A stretch of DNA of 64,000 nt, from positions 194,709 to 258,708 of the forward strand of contig JAOUBJ010000003.1 of the NCBI GenBank assembly GCA_029860345.1. Direction: 5' to 3'. The notes beneath the pieces were generated by a model. The model did not search any database and was not told the origin of the DNA. It was given only the letters and a program-made list of their open reading frames with translations. Position 1 is the first letter of the stretch. Each line of letters begins with the position of its first letter. This DNA is from Candidatus Zixiibacteriota bacterium (GTDB lineage: Bacteria > Zixibacteria > MSB-5A5 > GN15 > FEB-12). A program made the position numbers and the translations under genes. Below are positions 50,125 through 58,728 of this stretch, one piece after another.

Positions 50125-50362
50125 ATTCACTTTCGGCACTCTCATTCTTCCATAGATAAACGTGCTGTGGCCTATTTGGTTCGGCCCACCGGGCAACAAG
50201 CCGGTGCGGCAGACTTAGAGGGCAATATAAGTGATGTTTATCGATGGGGTCAACGCTGTTTATTGCTTGAGTAAAACCTGAGGGAACCTTCAGTCTTTCA
50301 AGCGATTGCCGAAACTAATAATGATGTAGTCTATCGCGAGTAAACTCAGACGGAGTGTTTTG

Positions 50363-51766
50363 ATGCCCACCAAGATTTTGGTCATAGACGACGAAGATTC
50401 CATGTGCAATTTCATGGAGATCATGCTGGCCAAGGCAGGCTACACTGTCGATACCGTTGTCTCTGCTCCTGACGGCGTTTCGATGCTCAAAGAGAAGAAC
50501 TACGACCTGGTCATTGCCGATTTGAATATGCCCGAAATGTCCGGCATTGACGTGCTCAAACAGATTCGTGCCTTTAAGAAGGATCAGGACCTGGTTGTGA
50601 TGACCGCCTATGCCTCGGTGGAAACGGCCATCGAAGCAATGAAACAAGGCGCCGCCGATTACATCACCAAACCATTCAAAGTGGATGAGATCAAGCTGAC
50701 AATCGAAAAGATTATCAACCGTCGACACCTGCTGATCGAGAACGACACACTCAAAAAACAACTCCAGGGCGATAACTCATTCGACAATTTCATTGGCACC
50801 TCCGAACAGGTTGCCAAGCTGAAGAAACTGGCCCGCCGGGTGGCCTCGTCCGACTCGACGGTTCTGGTCTTGGGTGAATCCGGCACCGGTAAAGACCTGA
50901 TCGCCAAGGCCATTCATCATCATTCGCCACGTTGCGGCGGCCAGTTCGTAACTATCAATTGCGCCGCCCTGCCCGAGCAACTGTTGGAGTCGGAACTCTT
51001 CGGCCATAAAAAAGGGGCCTTCACCGGCGCCATTCGAGATAAAGAAGGACTCTTCAAAGCAGCCGACGGCGGCACCTTTTTTCTCGACGAAATCGGCAAC
51101 ACTTCTCTGGCTATTCAGGTGAAACTCCTGAGAGTTCTCGAAGACAAGACAATCACACCGGTGGGCGAGACCAAACCGGTTGAGGTTGATGTTCGGCTTA
51201 TCGCGGCCACCAACTCAGACCTGGAAGATGATGTCAAGGCCGGGCGGTTCCGCGCTGATTTGTTCTACCGTCTTAACGTGATCCCTTTGCACATCCCTCC
51301 TTTGCGGGAACGGAAAGAAGACATAAAACTGCTGACCGGCCATTTCATTAACCTCTATTGCAGCAAGCTCAACTGCACCCTGAAGAACGTGTCTGAAACA
51401 GCGGTAGACCTTCTGAAAAACTACCACTGGCCGGGCAATGTCCGAGAGCTTGAGAACATGATAGAACAATCCGTCCTGCTGGTCCGGTCCGATACTATCG
51501 AAGCCTCCGACCTGCCGGACAAAATCAACACTACTCCGCAGATGGGGGTGGTGCAGGAATCTCAGCCGTCGACACCCACCCTTGAGTCGATCGAGAAAGC
51601 ATATATCCACTTCGTGATGAGCCAGACCGACGGCAAAAAGGCCAAGGCGGCCAAGATTCTGGGGATCGACACCTCCACGTTATACCGAAAAATCGAACGA
51701 TATGGTTTGAAGGATACCGCCGGTTCGAAGGACACCGAGGGGCTCAAATCGATCAAAGTAGATTAG
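50363..51766 (+). CDS. Sigma-54-dependent response regulator (PilR/NtrC type)
   Basis: 467 residues: a receiver domain (1-125) with phospho-acceptor Asp in LVIADLNMPEMSG and the Lys in YITKPFK; a AAA+ domain (about 145-380) with Walker A GESGTGKD, the sigma-54 contact GAFTGA and Walker B GGTFFLDEIG; and a Fis-type helix-turn-helix (KKAKAAKILGIDTSTLYRKI). It activates sigma-54 promoters when phosphorylated. GGAG lies eight bases before the ATG at 50363. No histidine kinase gene is adjacent. Since the next gene is a pilin with a -24/-12-like promoter, a PilR role is likely (inference). Confidence 0.93.
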   Translation: MPTKILVIDDEDSMCNFMEIMLAKAGYTVDTVVSAPDGVSMLKEKNYDLVIADLNMPEMSGIDVLKQIRAFKKDQDLVVMTAYASVETAIEAMKQGAADYITKPFKVDEIKLTIEKIINRRHLLIENDTLKKQLQGDNSFDNFIGTSEQVAKLKKLARRVASSDSTVLVLGESGTGKDLIAKAIHHHSPRCGGQFVTINCAALPEQLLESELFGHKKGAFTGAIRDKEGLFKAADGGTFFLDEIGNTSLAIQVKLLRVLEDKTITPVGETKPVEVDVRLIAATNSDLEDDVKAGRFRADLFYRLNVIPLHIPPLRERKEDIKLLTGHFINLYCSKLNCTLKNVSETAVDLLKNYHWPGNVRELENMIEQSVLLVRSDTIEASDLPDKINTTPQMGVVQESQPSTPTLESIEKAYIHFVMSQTDGKKAKAAKILGIDTSTLYRKIERYGLKDTAGSKDTEGLKSIKVD

Positions 51767-51787
51767 TAGGAAATTCAGGCAGCTCAA

Positions 51788-51803
51788 AGGAACACGATTT
51801 GCC
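51788..51803 (+). promoter_or_regulatory. Putative sigma-54 (-24/-12) promoter of pilin gene 1
   Basis: AGGAACACGATTTGCC has GG at 51789-51790 and GC at 51801-51802, the invariant 12-base offset of sigma-54 promoters, with the TTTGC half matching well and AGGAAC imperfectly matching TGGCAC. The start codon lies about 45 bases downstream. Confidence 0.5.
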
Positions 51804-51847
51804 ACTATTCGGCGGTGCAGTGACCGAACTCATGACATGAGGACACT

Positions 51848-52291
51848 ATGAAGATACTCAGAAATAGCTCAGCCGGATTCACACTGATCGAGTTGATGAT
51901 CGTGGTAGTGATAGTAGGCATACTAACGGCCCTGGCCATTCCCCGGTATATGTCGGCCTCCACCAAAACCAAACAGGCGGAAGCCAAATCGATCCTCAAG
52001 CAGATTTATGTCAACGAACGCACTTTTCGTCAACAGGAGGGGAACAACGCCTATTATATTCCGGCCGGACCGGCCTCGGCGTTAACCCCCAACGCTCTCA
52101 ACCAAATCTGGATAGAGATCGGCTCCACCGCCAAGTATAGTTTCACCGTGGTCAGTGTGGGCAACGGCTTTCTGGCCACAGCCGAGGGGAACATAGACGA
52201 TGATGCGGCCGTGGACACCTGGACTATTGACGATGCCGGTGTGCTGACTTGCACTTGTAACGATGTTGATGAGTCCGCCCCCTGTGCTTAA
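51848..52291 (+). CDS. Type IV pilin-like protein 1
   Basis: 147 residues. The prepilin peptidase site is in NSSAG/FTLIELMIVVVIVG with Glu at +5, followed by a hydrophobic alpha-helix. The globular part ends in a C-terminal cysteine group (LTCTCNDVDESAPCA) that could form the disulfide loop of PilA-type pilins. GAGG precedes the ATG. It is paralogous to the gene at 52712-53149, sharing IPRYM/IPRFM, LKQIY and a DDDAAxDxWTID segment. It has its own terminator. Confidence 0.93.
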   Translation: MKILRNSSAGFTLIELMIVVVIVGILTALAIPRYMSASTKTKQAEAKSILKQIYVNERTFRQQEGNNAYYIPAGPASALTPNALNQIWIEIGSTAKYSFTVVSVGNGFLATAEGNIDDDAAVDTWTIDDAGVLTCTCNDVDESAPCA

Positions 52292-52316
52292 GCTGCTACC
52301 GGCCTGAAAATGCTTG

Positions 52317-52345
52317 AGGCGCCCTTTGTGGGGGCGCCTTTTTTT
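52317..52345 (+). terminator. Rho-independent terminator of pilin gene 1
   Basis: Stem AGGCGCCC/GGGCGCCT (52317-52324 and 52332-52339), seven-base loop, seven T. Confidence 0.9.
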
Positions 52346-52403
52346 GTCTTTGTAAGCTCCACCCCGTCTCTCCGAAAGCGGCCTTAAGCTTGTCGCATGT
52401 TGG

Positions 52404-52431
52404 CAAACCCCGCGGAACGTTACGGGGTTTG
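52404..52431 (+). other. Stable hairpin in the leader region of pilin gene 2
   Basis: Perfect 9-bp stem CAAACCCCG/CGGGGTTTG around a 10-base loop, not followed by a T-run. It lies in the 366-bp gap 52346-52711 upstream of pilin gene 2. I see no clear sigma-54 or sigma-70 promoter and no known riboswitch consensus in this gap. Confidence 0.5.
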
Positions 52432-52711
52432 GACCTGAACACAACTGTGGCCAAACTCTATCTAATCCGAGCCTATTGTCATTGCATTTTGCCATGCTTT
52501 TTCGCAAGACGCAACTGCTCTCACTGCGAAAACCTGTCAAAAATGTGGAGGTTAGACCATACATATTAGCCACTTAGAGAAGAACCTATGCCTTCAAAGG
52601 ACTTACAAGCTGTGCAGAAAAAGTCGGCTGGTTTTGCACGGTTTATGCGATAGTCCCCTGCAGAAGAAGACACGAAACCAAGAACCGGAAGACCAACCCA
52701 AGGAGGTCGCA

Positions 52712-53149
52712 ATGTTCAGTCGTATTCACAATCGCAAGGGTTTCACCCTCATCGAGTTGATGATCGTTGTCGTGATCATCGGCATTCTGGCCGCTCTGGC
52801 CATCCCGCGTTTCATGCAGGCTACCACCAAGTCCAAGCAGTCGGAAGCCAAGCAGATTCTGAAGCAGATCTACACCATGCAGCGTGCCTACCGTCAGGAA
52901 AACGGCCTCTACGCCCATAACGGAGATGCCAGCACCTTAGGTGTTGACTACGTCTTCGCGGATATCGGTGTTGAAGTCAGTGGCGAAGCCACCTACGTTT
53001 ACACCATGACGGCCGCCAACAACACTTTCTCCTGCACCGCCACCGCCAACCTGGATGACGATGCTGCGATTGATAGTTGGACTATCGATCAGACTGGATT
53101 ACTCGCTCCAGACTGTGATGATGTTGTTGAGGCTGCGGCTTGCGCATAG
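52712..53149 (+). CDS. Type IV pilin-like protein 2 (major pilin candidate)
   Basis: 145 residues from the ATG at 52712, which has a strong AAGGAGG site; the longer open frame from 52634 is not needed. The prepilin site is NRKG/FTLIELMIVVVIIG. The globular part (GEATYVYTMTAANNTFSCTA) ends LLAPDCDDVVEAAACA with C-terminal cysteines. The strong ribosome site, strong terminator and separate leader suggest this is the more highly made of the two pilins (inference). Confidence 0.94.
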   Translation: MFSRIHNRKGFTLIELMIVVVIIGILAALAIPRFMQATTKSKQSEAKQILKQIYTMQRAYRQENGLYAHNGDASTLGVDYVFADIGVEVSGEATYVYTMTAANNTFSCTATANLDDDAAIDSWTIDQTGLLAPDCDDVVEAAACA

Positions 53150-53241: not shown

Positions 53242-55431
53242 CTATACAGATGGTTTGACACTGCTTGGCAAATCTTTCGTCTTGGGCGGATCGTAAGCAA
53301 TGACCAGAAGCATATCGTCCTTCTGTAGCGTGTGAAAAGGATTCTCCTTCTTGTTGGACAGCATCGGCAACGGATTGATCTTGAACTGAATCCTTCCTTT
53401 CACTCGCCGGCCAATACCTATGGGAATGACACCGTCTTTGGTTGTGACGTCGGTACATGCGACGCGGTACTTTCTGAAGGAAGCACCCGTCACAGAATCC
53501 GGTATTTTCACGGTATAAAGCTCGCAGGTGTCTCCCGTGGGTGTTAACAACTGGCGATAGACGTCGCTGAGACCTCTGTTCAAAGCACATTGGGCAAGTA
53601 GCATAGTCCGAATGTTACTTGAGGCAACAAAGTCCAGCGTTCCGGGGAAAGATCGTCTCAGTTCAGTAATCACCTTGACGTTGGCGACATTTCGCAATTC
53701 CACCACTACATCGAGCTCCACATCGTTATCTTCCGCGATCTCCTTTAGCACAAATACCGTGCGAAGTGTTTTTTCATCACTGGACTGTTCGCGATCATCA
53801 GCAAGCACAATGATGGCATCTGATTTCTCGACATTTGCGTTTAGTAGTGACATTTTGGCCCCGGGGTCGCCGGGACAGAAATACACATCTTCGAATCCCT
53901 CCGATCGCCGTTTTTGGAATTGTCGATTGAGCTCTTTGAAGTCAATTCCGGGGTCGTCCGAAACCACTGCGATTACCGAGTGTTCAAGGATAGGACTCCT
54001 AAGCTGTTCGATTACGGCGAGGGCGCGGGAGTTCCAATTGGCAATGACAAAGTGATCGGAGAGTTGCTTGGGCATACCTGCCTCCATGAAATGAATTATA
54101 AAACTCGATGCGAATAGACCGGTAATGAGGGCAATCATCAATGGCCCTAGGACTAGTGCCGATAGGCAAAAAAGCCTACCCACTCCAGTTACCGGGACAC
54201 GATTTTCCATTCCGCTGACTATGTATATCACAACAGAATACACGGACTCAAAGAAATTGGAGAAGGCCGCATTGATCTCGTGTTCCGCTAAATAGGCACC
54301 ATAGGAACAGGCAAGAGCCAGCATAATAGCAATGACTCCGAGTCCGCGAGCGGGATGGGAACGAAAGAATCTAAACAGCCTCAGACGGAACCGGAATGAC
54401 AAGATTATCAGCGTCACAAAGGCTACTGCCAAGACAATGTTGATGGGGGTGAAAAACGTGCTCGGAGGGGGCATGTAGATACCATTGCCGTATATAGAGA
54501 AATTGTCCAGGGATTGAGTGGATTGAAACCTGGAGAAGAGCCCTGAGTAGTCACTGCTGTCGCGGTTTTCGAGCTCAGCAGTGGCGGCATTAATTAGAGT
54601 CACAACTCCACTTACAAGTGCTGAATCCTCGTTTCTTGTTGTAACCAGAAGTACCGGCACCGATATGGCGTGGATGTCGGATGACTGGTTAGCATACGTC
54701 CTGGCAGGAATACTTCGGATGTAAATCCCTGTACGTTTGTCCTTGGATCGTCCGATTGTGATTTGTTTGCGTGCATCATGATCTAGTGAGTATAGATGCG
54801 CCACTCTCGCCCTCATGAGGTCTTTAACTAGATCGTTTCCTAACCCGTCAACATAGGTCGCGACATCAAGTTCATCCGCACGAAAGAGTCCTTCAACTTC
54901 GTCCAAGGAAACATCTTCTCTATGCGTATATTGCCCGGACGAAATACCGAGAGTGTTGAACAGTCCCTGGGTAGTAGATTTCGTACCGCTGCCGGGGAGC
55001 CCGGGAAATATCCGCAGATCACGAAACTGCGAGGCGCGCTGGATATTGAACTGAGATCTGACCAGAATGTGAAGATATTCCTCGAATATGGGTTTGATGA
55101 CTTGGATAGTTGACTCGGAATCATGCCTCAAATGCTCGACTAGAGCATCCTGCTGAGTTAGCGCGAACCGGACTTTTCCGGAATCCAACATGCGGAGGTT
55201 TTGCTGAGAACCGTTTGTGATGGAATCTCGGACATTCACGTTCGAATTCTGGCTCAACTGCGATGCCATTTTGCCGATCTCTGCGTAAATGCTCCCTTCT
55301 GGCCCAGTGGCGATTACGGTGTCAAGAAGGGAACCGCCCTCTGTACCCTCATCTGCCCAACCAACAAAGCCAGCAAAGAGTATCAGTAAGGTTAAAGCAA
55401 GCGAGTTTATGAGTTGCCTATTGATTGTCAT
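53242..55431 (-). CDS. TAXI-type periplasmic receptor fused to a two-helix pore and an RCK/TrkA-N-type domain (candidate ligand-gated ion channel)
   Basis: 729 residues. A signal peptide or anchor (1-26) precedes a TAXI-family substrate-binding domain (about 36-315), with ATGPEGSIYAEIGKMASQLS, LTQQDALVEHL, LRIFPGLPGSGTKSTTQG, ELDVATYVDG and a C-terminal AISVPVLLVTTR. A membrane helix (328-346) leads to a second (363-382), a pore-helix-like segment (FFESVYSVVIYIVSGMENR, 393-411), PVTGVGRL as in 2-TM potassium channels, and a third helix (420-445). Residues 456-729 form an RCK/TrkA-N-like region (LSDHFVIANWNSRALAVIEQ, IAVVSDDPGID, SDAIIVLADD). The expected TVGYG filter is replaced by IVSGMEN, closer to CASTOR/POLLUX channels, so selectivity is unknown. 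GGGAG precedes the ATG. Confidence 0.75.
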   Translation of the reverse strand: MTINRQLINSLALTLLILFAGFVGWADEGTEGGSLLDTVIATGPEGSIYAEIGKMASQLSQNSNVNVRDSITNGSQQNLRMLDSGKVRFALTQQDALVEHLRHDSESTIQVIKPIFEEYLHILVRSQFNIQRASQFRDLRIFPGLPGSGTKSTTQGLFNTLGISSGQYTHREDVSLDEVEGLFRADELDVATYVDGLGNDLVKDLMRARVAHLYSLDHDARKQITIGRSKDKRTGIYIRSIPARTYANQSSDIHAISVPVLLVTTRNEDSALVSGVVTLINAATAELENRDSSDYSGLFSRFQSTQSLDNFSIYGNGIYMPPPSTFFTPINIVLAVAFVTLIILSFRFRLRLFRFFRSHPARGLGVIAIMLALACSYGAYLAEHEINAAFSNFFESVYSVVIYIVSGMENRVPVTGVGRLFCLSALVLGPLMIALITGLFASSFIIHFMEAGMPKQLSDHFVIANWNSRALAVIEQLRSPILEHSVIAVVSDDPGIDFKELNRQFQKRRSEGFEDVYFCPGDPGAKMSLLNANVEKSDAIIVLADDREQSSDEKTLRTVFVLKEIAEDNDVELDVVVELRNVANVKVITELRRSFPGTLDFVASSNIRTMLLAQCALNRGLSDVYRQLLTPTGDTCELYTVKIPDSVTGASFRKYRVACTDVTTKDGVIPIGIGRRVKGRIQFKINPLPMLSNKKENPFHTLQKDDMLLVIAYDPPKTKDLPSSVKPSV

Positions 55432-55725: not shown

Positions 55726-56022
55726 CTACAGCTTTTCCTTGCGCTTCTTGAACACTATACGCGATATCCAAATGGCTGCGGCCAACAACGCCACTCCAAA
55801 GAGACCTCGATCTGATGTGAGCACGGCTTTGAACAGCCGAAAAAGAATCTCAAAAATGTTGCCGGAGGAAATGTCTACATTCTCGACCGCTCCGAGTATC
55901 AAATAACCGGCCACCGCCCAAAGAGCATATACGAGAATCGTTAGGGTAAGGCGGTCTCTGGGATTGATCCGTTGATGTGCAGACTTATCGGATTCTTCGT
56001 TGTCAGCGTCTGGAATGGCCAA
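55726..56022 (-). CDS. Small membrane protein, unknown
   Basis: 98 residues with a TTG start and GAGG just upstream. A charged N-terminus (DADNEESDKSAHQ) precedes two hydrophobic helices (about 26-45 and 71-90), then a basic RIVFKKRKEKL end, giving a hairpin in the membrane with both ends probably cytoplasmic. I recognise no family. It is 294 bp upstream of the receptor-channel gene on the same strand and could be its partner, but nothing in the sequence proves this. Confidence 0.55.
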   Translation of the reverse strand: MAIPDADNEESDKSAHQRINPRDRLTLTILVYALWAVAGYLILGAVENVDISSGNIFEILFRLFKAVLTSDRGLFGVALLAAAIWISRIVFKKRKEKL

Positions 56023-56162
56023 AATACCTCAGACCTAATCAACTGTCGAAACCTCGCCCTTCGACTGCGCTCAGGACGACCCCTTCGGGACAGGGGTTTC
56101 GACCTACCTTGTTAACCTGGATGAAGTCTCGGGCGCGAAGCGCCAAGAACCCATTTATCAGT

Positions 56163-57566
56163 TTATGAGTCGACCGTCACAGTCTCGGCGTTGAGAGCTT
56201 TCAGATCGCAGGTGAAATGCCTGAGAAACACCGGCTGTTTCACGATCTCGAAACCTTTCAGGCTGTCTTTGCGAGCCACAATCTTTTCGGCCGTTTCGGC
56301 AATATAATCCAGATGTGAATTGGTAAACACTCTTCGAGGTAAAGCCATCCGCACCAGTTCACGACTGGCGTGCATCTTCTTACCGGTATTGGGGTCGACC
56401 CCACCGAACATCAAGGAACCTATCTCCACGGTCCGAACGCCACCATCAACATAAAAGGCGCAGGCCAGACTCTGACCGGGGAACTGTTCAGCCGGTATCT
56501 GGGGCAGCAGTTTACCAGCATCACAGAACACGGCGTGACCGCCAGTCGGTTCGACGATAGGTATTCCAGCCGCCTTGATTTGCTCACCGAAGTATTTCAC
56601 CTGATCGATCCGGAAATCGAGGTAGTCGTGTTCCATCACCTCCTGCAATCCAATGGCCAGCACTTCCAGATCGCGCCCGGCCAAACCGCCGTAGGTCGGG
56701 AAGCCTTCAATCAGAATCAAAAGTTCGGTGAGTCGGCCGAACAGCTCTTCATCGTCGAGAATAATAAACCCGCCGATATTGGCCAGCCCGTCTTTCTTGG
56801 CCGACATCATGGCGCCGTCGCACAGTGAGAACATCTCGGTAGTGATCTCAGCGATAGACTTATCCTGATACCCGGGCTCGTCCCGCTTGATAAAGTAGGC
56901 GTTTTCCGCAAAGCGAGCACAGTCGAAGAAAAACGGAATCCGATAGTAGCGACAGATGCGCGACACTTCGTGAATGTTGGCCATCGACACCGGCTGCCCA
57001 CCCACCGAGTTGTTGGTGATGGTCATGATTACCATCGAAATCTGCTCCGAAGTGTGCTTCCGGATAAACTCCTCCAACCGCAGGACATCCATATTCCCCT
57101 TGAACGGTAGTGGTTCATCGGAGTCCGCTTCCGGGCACGGCAGATCGAGCGGTATGCCGCCTTTGTGCAGGGTGTTGCCGCGGGTAGTATCGAAGTGGGT
57201 GTTGTTCAGCACATACTTTCCTTTTTCCAGGATAGATGTGAACACTATGTTCTCAGCCGAACGCCCTTGATGGCAGGGGAGCAAAAACCGCTTACCGAAT
57301 ATCTCTTTGACGGTCTTTTCGAACTTACGAAACGACCTCGCCCCGGCATAAGTCTCATCGCCCAACATCAGGGCGGCCCATTGCTGCGCCGACATCGCCC
57401 CGGTACCGGAATCGGTCAGCAAATCGAGGTATATCCATTCGCCATCGAGCTTGAAAACATTGTAGTTGGCCTGCCTGAGCCGGTAGAGACGTTCTTCCGG
57501 CGACAGCAGCTTAATCGGTTCGACTGATTTAACGCGGTAGGGTTCCGCGGGTGGACGCTTTCTCAT
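56163..57566 (-). CDS. tnaA: Tryptophanase (beta-eliminating lyase)
   Basis: 467 residues, fold-type I PLP enzyme. The Schiff-base lysine is in MMSAKKDGLANIGG (about Lys258). ITNNSVGGQPVSMAN, ARFAENAYFIK and EGFPTYGGLAGRDLE are shared by tryptophanases and tyrosine phenol-lyases. Two points favour tryptophanase: FDTTRG (Asp126) as in TnaA FDTTQG, and VRTVEIGS, where tyrosine phenol-lyase has the phenol-binding arginine of RSMERG. It would split tryptophan to indole, pyruvate and ammonia. It lies downstream of an asparaginase and a short open frame, probably in one operon. Confidence 0.88.
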   Translation of the reverse strand: MRKRPPAEPYRVKSVEPIKLLSPEERLYRLRQANYNVFKLDGEWIYLDLLTDSGTGAMSAQQWAALMLGDETYAGARSFRKFEKTVKEIFGKRFLLPCHQGRSAENIVFTSILEKGKYVLNNTHFDTTRGNTLHKGGIPLDLPCPEADSDEPLPFKGNMDVLRLEEFIRKHTSEQISMVIMTITNNSVGGQPVSMANIHEVSRICRYYRIPFFFDCARFAENAYFIKRDEPGYQDKSIAEITTEMFSLCDGAMMSAKKDGLANIGGFIILDDEELFGRLTELLILIEGFPTYGGLAGRDLEVLAIGLQEVMEHDYLDFRIDQVKYFGEQIKAAGIPIVEPTGGHAVFCDAGKLLPQIPAEQFPGQSLACAFYVDGGVRTVEIGSLMFGGVDPNTGKKMHASRELVRMALPRRVFTNSHLDYIAETAEKIVARKDSLKGFEIVKQPVFLRHFTCDLKALNAETVTVDS

Positions 57567-57625
57567 TTTAGTACTCTCTTTTTTGACGGTTCCAGGTTTA
57601 CGGACCAGCGGTCAAAGAGAGCGGC

Positions 57626-57712
57626 TTAGGTGGCGTCTTTTACCCAGCGGCGATGGTACTCGATCCCGAGGTGTATGAGCGACAGAGCTGTGTATCGTGC
57701 GTTCGCCATCAT
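57626..57712 (-). CDS. Possible 28-residue peptide between asparaginase and tryptophanase genes
   Basis: The ATG overlaps the asparaginase stop (ATGA) and is preceded by AGGAAAGC. It encodes MMANARYTALSLIHLGIEYH followed by RRWVKDAT and ends 59 bp before tnaA. Its one tryptophan near the end recalls tnaC leader peptides, but the terminal proline of TnaC is missing. It may equally be a chance frame. Confidence 0.3.
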   Translation of the reverse strand: MMANARYTALSLIHLGIEYHRRWVKDAT

Positions 57713-58728
57713 GCTTTCCTTAGCTTGAAGGATGGAACGATCCGTCCGGTGACTATCTTCCGGGCGTTGCGAACCTCTGGTTGCTCGTGCTTTTTCATAA
57801 AGGGATAATGCTCAATATTCTTTATTATGTCAAGCTGCTTGAGAGCTTCAATTATTATCGCCCCCATCGCCCGCCAGTTGCCGTCGTGGACCTTGACTGC
57901 GATCCCGACCGATGGTTCGGCCAGACCGACTCCCTCGATGGATTCCCCACCCACCTTGCAGACGATATTGTGCTCGAATGAACGCATCAAAGCCAGATCG
58001 AGCCGGTGGCGACCGGAGACCATCTCGGGGTAGCTGCGCATAGCGTCTCGGATACGAGTGAGCGCCGCCCGAACGATTAGATCGTCACTATCGACATTGG
58101 CCAGTCTCATAAATGCTCGTGCGATGTTCAAAAGCGGTAGCGGAAAGTTCGGCGCACTGCACCCGTCGACCCCGGTCGGCATCTTCTCAATCGGATACTC
58201 GCAGAAATCGCTGACCGCTTGCTTTACAAGTTTCTGGGTCTTACTCTCGGGATTGATATACTCGCCGGGCTCTTCACCGAGAAACTTCGCCAGCGCCAGA
58301 AACCCGGCATGCTTGCCCGAACAATTATGACGTACCGGATCGGTTTCTTCGCCGTCATGCGGAAACTCCATCGTCTCTTGCATACCGAGCGGCCAGTGGC
58401 TGCCACACTGGAGATCATTCGGCGTGCAGCCAATGGCTTCCAGAATCGATAGCACGACATCGCGGTGGTCGTCGGAACCGTTGTGTGAGCCGCACATGAT
58501 AGCCAGTTGTCGCGGTGTGAACTTGAAATGGTCGGCGGCGCCGGCGGTCATCAGCGGGAGAAGCTGAAACGGTTTGATGCACGAGCGGGTCATGCTGACC
58601 ATTTCAGGATCACCAAGCGAATGGGTCAGCTTACCTGATGCGTCGACTACGGCAATCGAGGCATAGTGTAGCGCTTCGATTTCATCACCGCGATACACGC
58701 GGGCCGCGAGGTGGGGTTGGTTATTCAT
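57709..58728 (-). CDS. L-asparaginase II family protein
   Basis: 339 residues. Family segments are MTRSCIKPFQLLPLM, MCGSHNGSDDHRD, HNCSGKHAGFLALAKF and PTGVDGCSAPNFPLPL. This is the PF06089-type asparaginase, unrelated to the classical AnsA/B fold, and it hydrolyses asparagine to aspartate and ammonia. With tryptophanase downstream the operon looks like amino-acid catabolism. There is no clear ribosome site before the ATG. The upstream gap 58729-58978 carries P1 repeats. Confidence 0.92.
   Translation of the reverse strand: MNNQPHLAARVYRGDEIEALHYASIAVVDASGKLTHSLGDPEMVSMTRSCIKPFQLLPLMTAGAADHFKFTPRQLAIMCGSHNGSDDHRDVVLSILEAIGCTPNDLQCGSHWPLGMQETMEFPHDGEETDPVRHNCSGKHAGFLALAKFLGEEPGEYINPESKTQKLVKQAVSDFCEYPIEKMPTGVDGCSAPNFPLPLLNIARAFMRLANVDSDDLIVRAALTRIRDAMRSYPEMVSGRHRLDLALMRSFEHNIVCKVGGESIEGVGLAEPSVGIAVKVHDGNWRAMGAIIIEALKQLDIIKNIEHYPFMKKHEQPEVRNARKIVTGRIVPSFKLRKA

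Follow-up and report, generated by a model that had tools for sequence, protein, structure and literature searches.

The window analysed here, a stretch of 64,000 nucleotides from a bacterium of the little-studied Zixibacteria, carries on its reverse strand a single-frame, uninterrupted open reading frame of 729 codons with an ATG start, whose product joins a predicted exported solute-binding domain of the TAXI type, a pore segment of the K+-channel superfamily and one RCK domain in one chain (Table 1). Convergent with this gene lie a sigma-54 response regulator gene followed by two type IV pilin-like genes, a neighbourhood conserved in the nearest relative (L002). Upstream, and on the same strand, are found a short frame for a two-helix membrane protein without an ATG start, for which L002 shows no counterpart ahead of its channel gene, and genes for a beta-eliminating lyase (tryptophanase/tyrosine phenol-lyase type) and an asparaginase II, which belong to amino-acid catabolism and do not adjoin the channel in L002.

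Table 1. Features of the TAXI-pore-RCK gene and its neighbours, in coordinates of the window.
Feature	Coordinates	Strand	Basis
Whole gene: TAXI-pore-RCK fusion, 729 aa	53242..55431	-	ORF call, Pfam, same architecture in three other genomes
Predicted signal peptide, residues 1-26 (hydrophobic 7-25, then A-D-E)	55354..55431	-	Hydropathy scan of four fusions; cleavage position by inspection
TAXI (NMT1_3) solute-binding domain, residues 36-315, predicted periplasmic	54487..55326	-	PF16868 E 9.4e-26; PDB TAXI proteins E 5e-29
Y49, equivalent of VcGluP Y45, key glutamate-binding residue	55285..55287	-	Alignment and PMC11574862
Q93, equivalent of VcGluP Q93, key glutamate-binding residue	55153..55155	-	Alignment and PMC11574862
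TM1, extra transmembrane helix, residues 326-347, chain predicted to run inwards	54391..54456	-	Hydropathy scan; low-confidence AF2 helix 329-347
M1 pore helix, residues 361-384	54280..54351	-	Hydropathy scan, profile-profile comparison
Pore helix and filter, residues 393-410; V405-S-G-M-E-N410 where T-V-G-Y-G-D is expected	54202..54255	-	Alignments, profile-profile comparison
M2 pore-lining helix, residues 417-449	54085..54183	-	Hydropathy scan, AF2, profile-profile comparison
Single cytoplasmic RCK (N-lobe and Castor_Poll_mid-type C-lobe), residues 457-716	53284..54063	-	PF22614, PF06241; CASTOR/DMI1/MthK profiles
Possible internal start of translation, ATGGAGGCAGGTATG, where M2 meets the RCK; M453 is its second ATG	54073..54087	-	Suggestive only
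Sigma-54 response regulator, then two type IV pilin-like genes	50360-53149	+	
Two-helix membrane protein frame without ATG start	55726-56030	-	
Beta-eliminating lyase and asparaginase II	56163-58728	-	

As far as sequence can tell, the identity, order and orientation of the domains are secure for the window protein. Pfam assigns NMT1_3 (PF16868, TAXI) to residues 40-289 with 91.5 bits against a cut-off of 27 (E 9.4e-26), and Slo-like_RCK (PF22614) and Castor_Poll_mid (PF06241) to residues 473-566 and 607-716, both above their curated cut-offs; among the NCBIfam models, TRAP_TAXI (TIGR02122) falls just short with 81.6 bits where 84.35 are required, and residues 338-588 align with the Kch-type model PRK10537 at a score far under its cut-off. 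The single sequence gave no pore match in Pfam. A profile of four proteins of this architecture matches the solved TAXI proteins (1us4, positions 37-273, E 5.5e-29), KCNQ pores (370-458), MthK through pore and RCK in one colinear stretch (371-683, E 3.7e-11) and CASTOR/DMI1 (459-710, E about 1e-27). AlphaFold2, with the window protein and its closest relative as input, returned a mean pLDDT of 34.8; its helices (329-347, 360-386, 393-408 and 416-449) are compatible with an M1-P-M2 arrangement but carry no weight alone. The initial annotation had described an exported TAXI-like region, a pore helix with a PVTGVGRL pattern and an RCK-like domain following one another in a single chain of 729 residues. 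The TAXI assignment and the order of the domains are borne out, and the pattern corresponds to P413-L420, the P-x-T-x-x-G-R that follows the filters of K+ channels.

A hydropathy scan yields the same layout for all four fusions, namely a hydrophobic N-terminus (under the threshold of the scan in the closest relative), about 290 extracytoplasmic residues, a helix, a loop, a helix, a re-entrant segment, a helix and the RCK. The short loop after TM1 has a net charge of +4 to +6 in all four and is predicted to be cytoplasmic by the positive-inside rule; the filter loop would therefore share the periplasmic side with TAXI, which matches the orientation of ordinary K+ channels, whereas the pore of iGluRs and GluR0 is inverted (PMC6385376) and thus oriented in the opposite way.

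The other proteins of this architecture are 66% (L002/L004), 31% (L005) and 24% (L006) identical to the window protein. The closest comes from a genome of the same genus, on a contig titled Candidatus Zixiibacteriota, and its gene adjoins the same two pilin genes and the same sigma-54 regulator as the window gene; the fusions at 31% and 24% come from two more genomes of the phylum, one of them in another family, and their contigs stop short of the C-terminus. The initial annotation had allowed for homologs with separate halves, joined here by chance or in assembly. This concern falls away, since the same domain order recurs in four genomes of one phylum, two of them with conserved neighbours, and the idea that two genes were joined by accident or in assembly, for which nothing speaks, retains practically no probability. 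The distribution is patchy: of the 132 genomes of the phylum, 4 have the fusion, and a profile search of the same set added no further case. No fusion was found among those of 386 sampled genomes that lie outside the phylum, in 145 genomes of the class of G177, in 40 and 17 genomes of two other phyla (the search of the 40 used a strict cut-off that would reveal fusions and hide halves), in a last search of two genomes only, among 72,556 plasmids or in viral contigs, which held a TAXI fragment only. Additionally, no TAXI gene lies within the 1.5 kb flanks of the stand-alone channels L011, L027, L066 and L067. In the genome G078, a TAXI reading frame of 182 residues (L045) runs into a stretch of N and could represent an orphan or a fused TAXI. 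The trees neither demonstrate nor reject that the fusion arose once (p-AU 0.16 and 0.20), and long branches in them make the placement of G067 unsure.

The binding site of the TAXI domain can be compared with characterized relatives. In VcGluP, Y45 and Q93 are decisive for glutamate binding and S75 and E125 also contact the ligand, all of them tested by mutation (PMC11574862), and the homologous tyrosine and glutamine have been confirmed by mutation in BP0403 (PMC12344293). The corresponding residues Y49, S75, Q93 and E118 do not vary among the four fusions and the two solved glutamate binders. Only 54% of TAXI proteins retain Q93, and 78% retain Y45 (PMC11574862); the TRAP-associated TAXI protein of the sister genome G056 has F, Y, A and A at the positions of Y49, Q93, S75 and E118, respectively. 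Because the glutamate-contact residues are invariant in the fusions and lost in other TAXI proteins such as that of G056, glutamate, glutamine or a close analogue is the best guess for the extracellular ligand, with L-glutamate or something closely similar to it as the probable one.

Equally relevant is the lack of a transport partner. The genome, which is 99% complete, gave no match to DctM (PF06808) in a search that was positive in 7 of 14 controls, and none to GltS (PF03616); the membrane components of TRAP transporters and of TAXI-GltS systems are therefore missing from this genome, and no known TAXI partner is available. In G056, an ordinary TAXI gene is followed by a TRAP membrane gene. 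From the absent partners, which constitute the strongest argument, we infer that the TAXI domain senses rather than imports its ligand.

In a profile-profile comparison, the pore segment matched ten RCK K+-channel pores with 98.8% probability (E 6e-17); the five control segments, taken from a DctM membrane protein, reached 0.1-2.4%. E383, N387, F390, E395, P413, T415 and G418 do not vary among the fusions and for the most part also occur in K+-channel pores. The M1-P-M2 organization of the K+-channel superfamily is thus present, and the TVGYG-type filter of K+-selective channels is missing from all four fusions, whose filters read VSGMEN, VSGMEN, LTNKLG and VSGFED; that of the G053 fusion differs by its N-K-L-G and the deletion of one residue. 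The motif G-(M/W/F)-E, present in three of the four, recurs at the filter position of stand-alone three-helix RCK channels of another phylum (Y-G-M-E-Q, Q-G-W-E-M and Y-G-W-E-A), which suggests a kept feature and apparently not decay. Selectivity for K+ is not expected from G-M-E-N, in which a glutamate takes the place of the last glycine of the filter. In the Ca2+-selective CASTOR, which conducts Ca2+ with a non-GYG filter, a filter aspartate is essential (PMC6697748), and by analogy permeation of cations, possibly divalent ones, by way of the filter glutamate is plausible. In the trees, canonical TVGYG channels group together (support 100/99); outside this group fall the CASTOR/tandem-RCK pair, the fusions and the two other non-GYG groups, and the branching order among these latter lineages is not settled by the same trees.

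Both of these other groups consist of stand-alone channels. L027, L066 and L067, all of one phylum, are 3TM-RCK proteins with G-(M/W)-E filters and come nearest in layout to the fusion's channel half, while L011 and L054-L065, from G177 and 12 relatives of its class, form a 2TM-RCK group with G-E-Y-P-D instead of G-Y-G-D. No description of either the 3TM-RCK or the 2TM-RCK group was found in the literature searched.

The approximately 280 residues after M2 form one RCK that follows the helix directly, as in RCK-gated channels, and is nearest to CASTOR/DMI1 (E about 1e-27 to 1e-29) and then to MthK. At the place of the Rossmann G-x-G-x-x-G stands A-N-W-N-S-R, with equivalents in the other three fusions, so that the domain lacks the signature of nucleotide-binding RCKs (TrkA/KtrA) and the label "NAD-binding" in the initial annotation is not supported. 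Of the second input proposed there, a cytoplasmic nucleotide or ion, the ionic part is favoured: an ion is the likelier ligand because the glycine motif is absent, as in the ion-gated MthK (G-W-S) and in CASTOR. Of the acids of the MthK Ca2+ site, two have equivalents (D552 and E578) that are invariant in the fusions, and the third position reads R/R/V/N, a pattern that speaks only weakly for Ca2+ sensing by the RCK.

With one RCK per chain, an octameric ring would need a second RCK set, which MthK obtains by starting translation internally at Met107 (PMC9440719). In the window gene and in the relative at 66% identity, ATGGAGGCAGGTATG stands at the M2/RCK border, where a start at M453 would give a free RCK of 277 residues. 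The Shine-Dalgarno match of M453 is equalled by only 1 of 42 other in-frame starts; under synonymous-codon sampling the p value is 0.50 for the window, the encoded amino acids thus explaining the match. Over 26 relatives, the same sampling gives a combined p of 0.004, or 0.02 without near-copies, values that apply to a start picked as the best of several, and altogether the internal start is suggestive only. In-frame starts with a good Shine-Dalgarno sequence at this border also occur in L013, L017, L018, L021, L027, L056, L057 and others, while a start codon is absent from this place in the tandem-RCK gene L019. Amino-acid content accounts for most of these border starts in single-RCK genes and leaves a small excess.

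Taken together, these features make it fairly probable that the protein forms a tetramer in the inner membrane and acts there as a ligand-gated cation channel, with a glutamate-type ligand and a second, cytoplasmic input. We infer the tetramer, the identity of the ligand, gating driven by domain closure via TM1 and M1, cation conduction and the ionic co-signal from the cytoplasm. L-glutamate (or glutamine or a close analogue) would close the TAXI clamshell, and this movement would be transmitted to TM1 and the outer end of M1 and from there to the pore, while the RCK gating ring would pull on M2 and set or veto opening in response to a cytoplasmic ion, for which Ca2+ is the first candidate. 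The pore would pass cations without being selective for K+, and the outcome would be an electrical or Ca2+ response to an extracellular amino acid, not its uptake. Against this reading speak the deviating N-K-L-G filter of the G053 fusion and the scattered occurrence of the gene, and against Ca2+ as the ion the non-acidic third position of the putative site. A more far-reaching reading, which we hold tentatively and with some doubt, is that of an independently evolved glutamate receptor channel, in which TAXI would be combined with a non-inverted pore, an acidic, non-K+-selective and possibly Ca2+-permeable filter and a second cytoplasmic gate, resulting in two-input signalling.

The divergent filter could also be read as degenerate, in which case the protein would be a non-conducting receptor whose pore serves only as a tetrameric scaffold, through which the closing of TAXI would reach the RCK ring or a partner in the cytoplasm. 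The absence of GYG from all four fusions and the shortened N-K-L-G filter of G053 would fit such a role; however, the G-(M/W/F)-E filter is common to stand-alone channels of another phylum, the parallel clade including G177 and its relatives keeps G-E-Y-P-D throughout, CASTOR conducts Ca2+ although its filter is likewise non-GYG (PMC6697748), and the pore-helix landmarks are invariant, all of which renders a non-conducting receptor unlikely. Gating might instead come mainly from the inside, through an ion or metabolite at the RCK ring, with the TAXI domain only tuning the channel or holding another kind of ligand. RCK rings are indeed the principal gate in MthK and CASTOR (PMC9440719, PMC6697748), and pore and RCK are the same in relatives that lack TAXI, so that this core evidently can stand alone; yet in the fusions nothing of the TAXI domain is missing and its glutamate contacts stay unchanged across wide divergence, suggesting a required ligand, and we consider predominantly internal gating quite unlikely.

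A role in transport fares worse still. TAXI-GltS fusions exist (PMC12344293), and by their example, or that of TAXI-TRAP fusions, the domain could be a tethered binding protein that passes its ligand to a transporter, but in a genome without DctM or GltS, and with a membrane part that is a channel pore and not a transporter, this is very improbable.

A ligand-gated cation channel of the kind preferred here would share features with several known systems. Fusion of a binding protein to a P-loop pore is as such a kind known from GluR0; with GluR0 and the prokaryotic iGluRs (PMC2950845, PMC6385376) the protein has in common a periplasmic-binding-protein fold and a two-helix P-loop pore in one chain, probably an amino-acid ligand, and clamshell closure as the presumed gating signal. 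In contrast to these, its sensor is TAXI and not SBP_bac_3 (no SBP_bac_3-type Pfam match was obtained in the four fusions), is intact at 40-289 and not split by the pore, and precedes a pore of normal orientation with its loop outside, accompanied by an extra transmembrane helix and an RCK. CASTOR/POLLUX/DMI1 (PMC6697748) provide the nearest solved RCK, a non-GYG filter and a cytoplasmic ring after M2, but have two tandem RCKs instead of one and AD(S/A)GNHA instead of VSGMEN, whereas the fusion is bacterial and bears an exported TAXI domain. MthK and other 2TM-RCK K+ channels are alike in the colinear M1-P-M2-RCK and in the possible internal start corresponding to Met107 of MthK (PMC9440719), and unlike in that the fusion lacks TVGYG and has TAXI and an extra helix in front. 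VcGluP, TtGluBP and the TAXI-GltS fusions (PMC11574862, PMC12344293) share the whole binding domain with its glutamate-contact residues, whereas here TAXI is joined to a channel pore in a genome without the transporter partner. Finally, the stand-alone 3TM-RCK channels share the non-GYG filter, the RCK and the extra helix before M1, and the 2TM-RCK group with G-E-Y-P-D shares the non-GYG filter and the RCK; both differ from the fusion in having no TAXI.

From GluR0 the fusion differs in the family of the binding protein, the intact sensor, the pore orientation, the filter and the RCK, and by the comparisons above the protein would fall outside the iGluRs, CASTOR, the K+-selective channels and the TRAP transporters. 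No published description of the fusion was found in the open-access literature searched, so that priority is not proven. If the reading as a ligand-gated cation channel is true, the fusion would represent a second solution, with the coupling of a Venus flytrap to a P-loop pore not bound to iGluR geometry, and would offer a simple bacterial model of it; TAXI proteins would gain a role outside transport, and the CASTOR-type pore a bacterial relative with an acidic, non-K+ filter. Under a database label of TRAP binding subunit, the TAXI-pore-RCK fusion would go unnoticed.

Apart from the fusion gene, the window contains a dispersed repeat with the core CCTGAGCG(C/G)AGTCGAAGG, present in 14 copies with at most 2 mismatches against 0.01 expected, at sites including 19347, 20274, 34918, 40321, 47583, 56058, 58904, 59906, 63109 and 63466. 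The sequence GTCCTGAGCGNAGTCGAAGG occurs in 26 exact copies in the genome (0 for the reversed control), and the repeat is probably a REP-like element.
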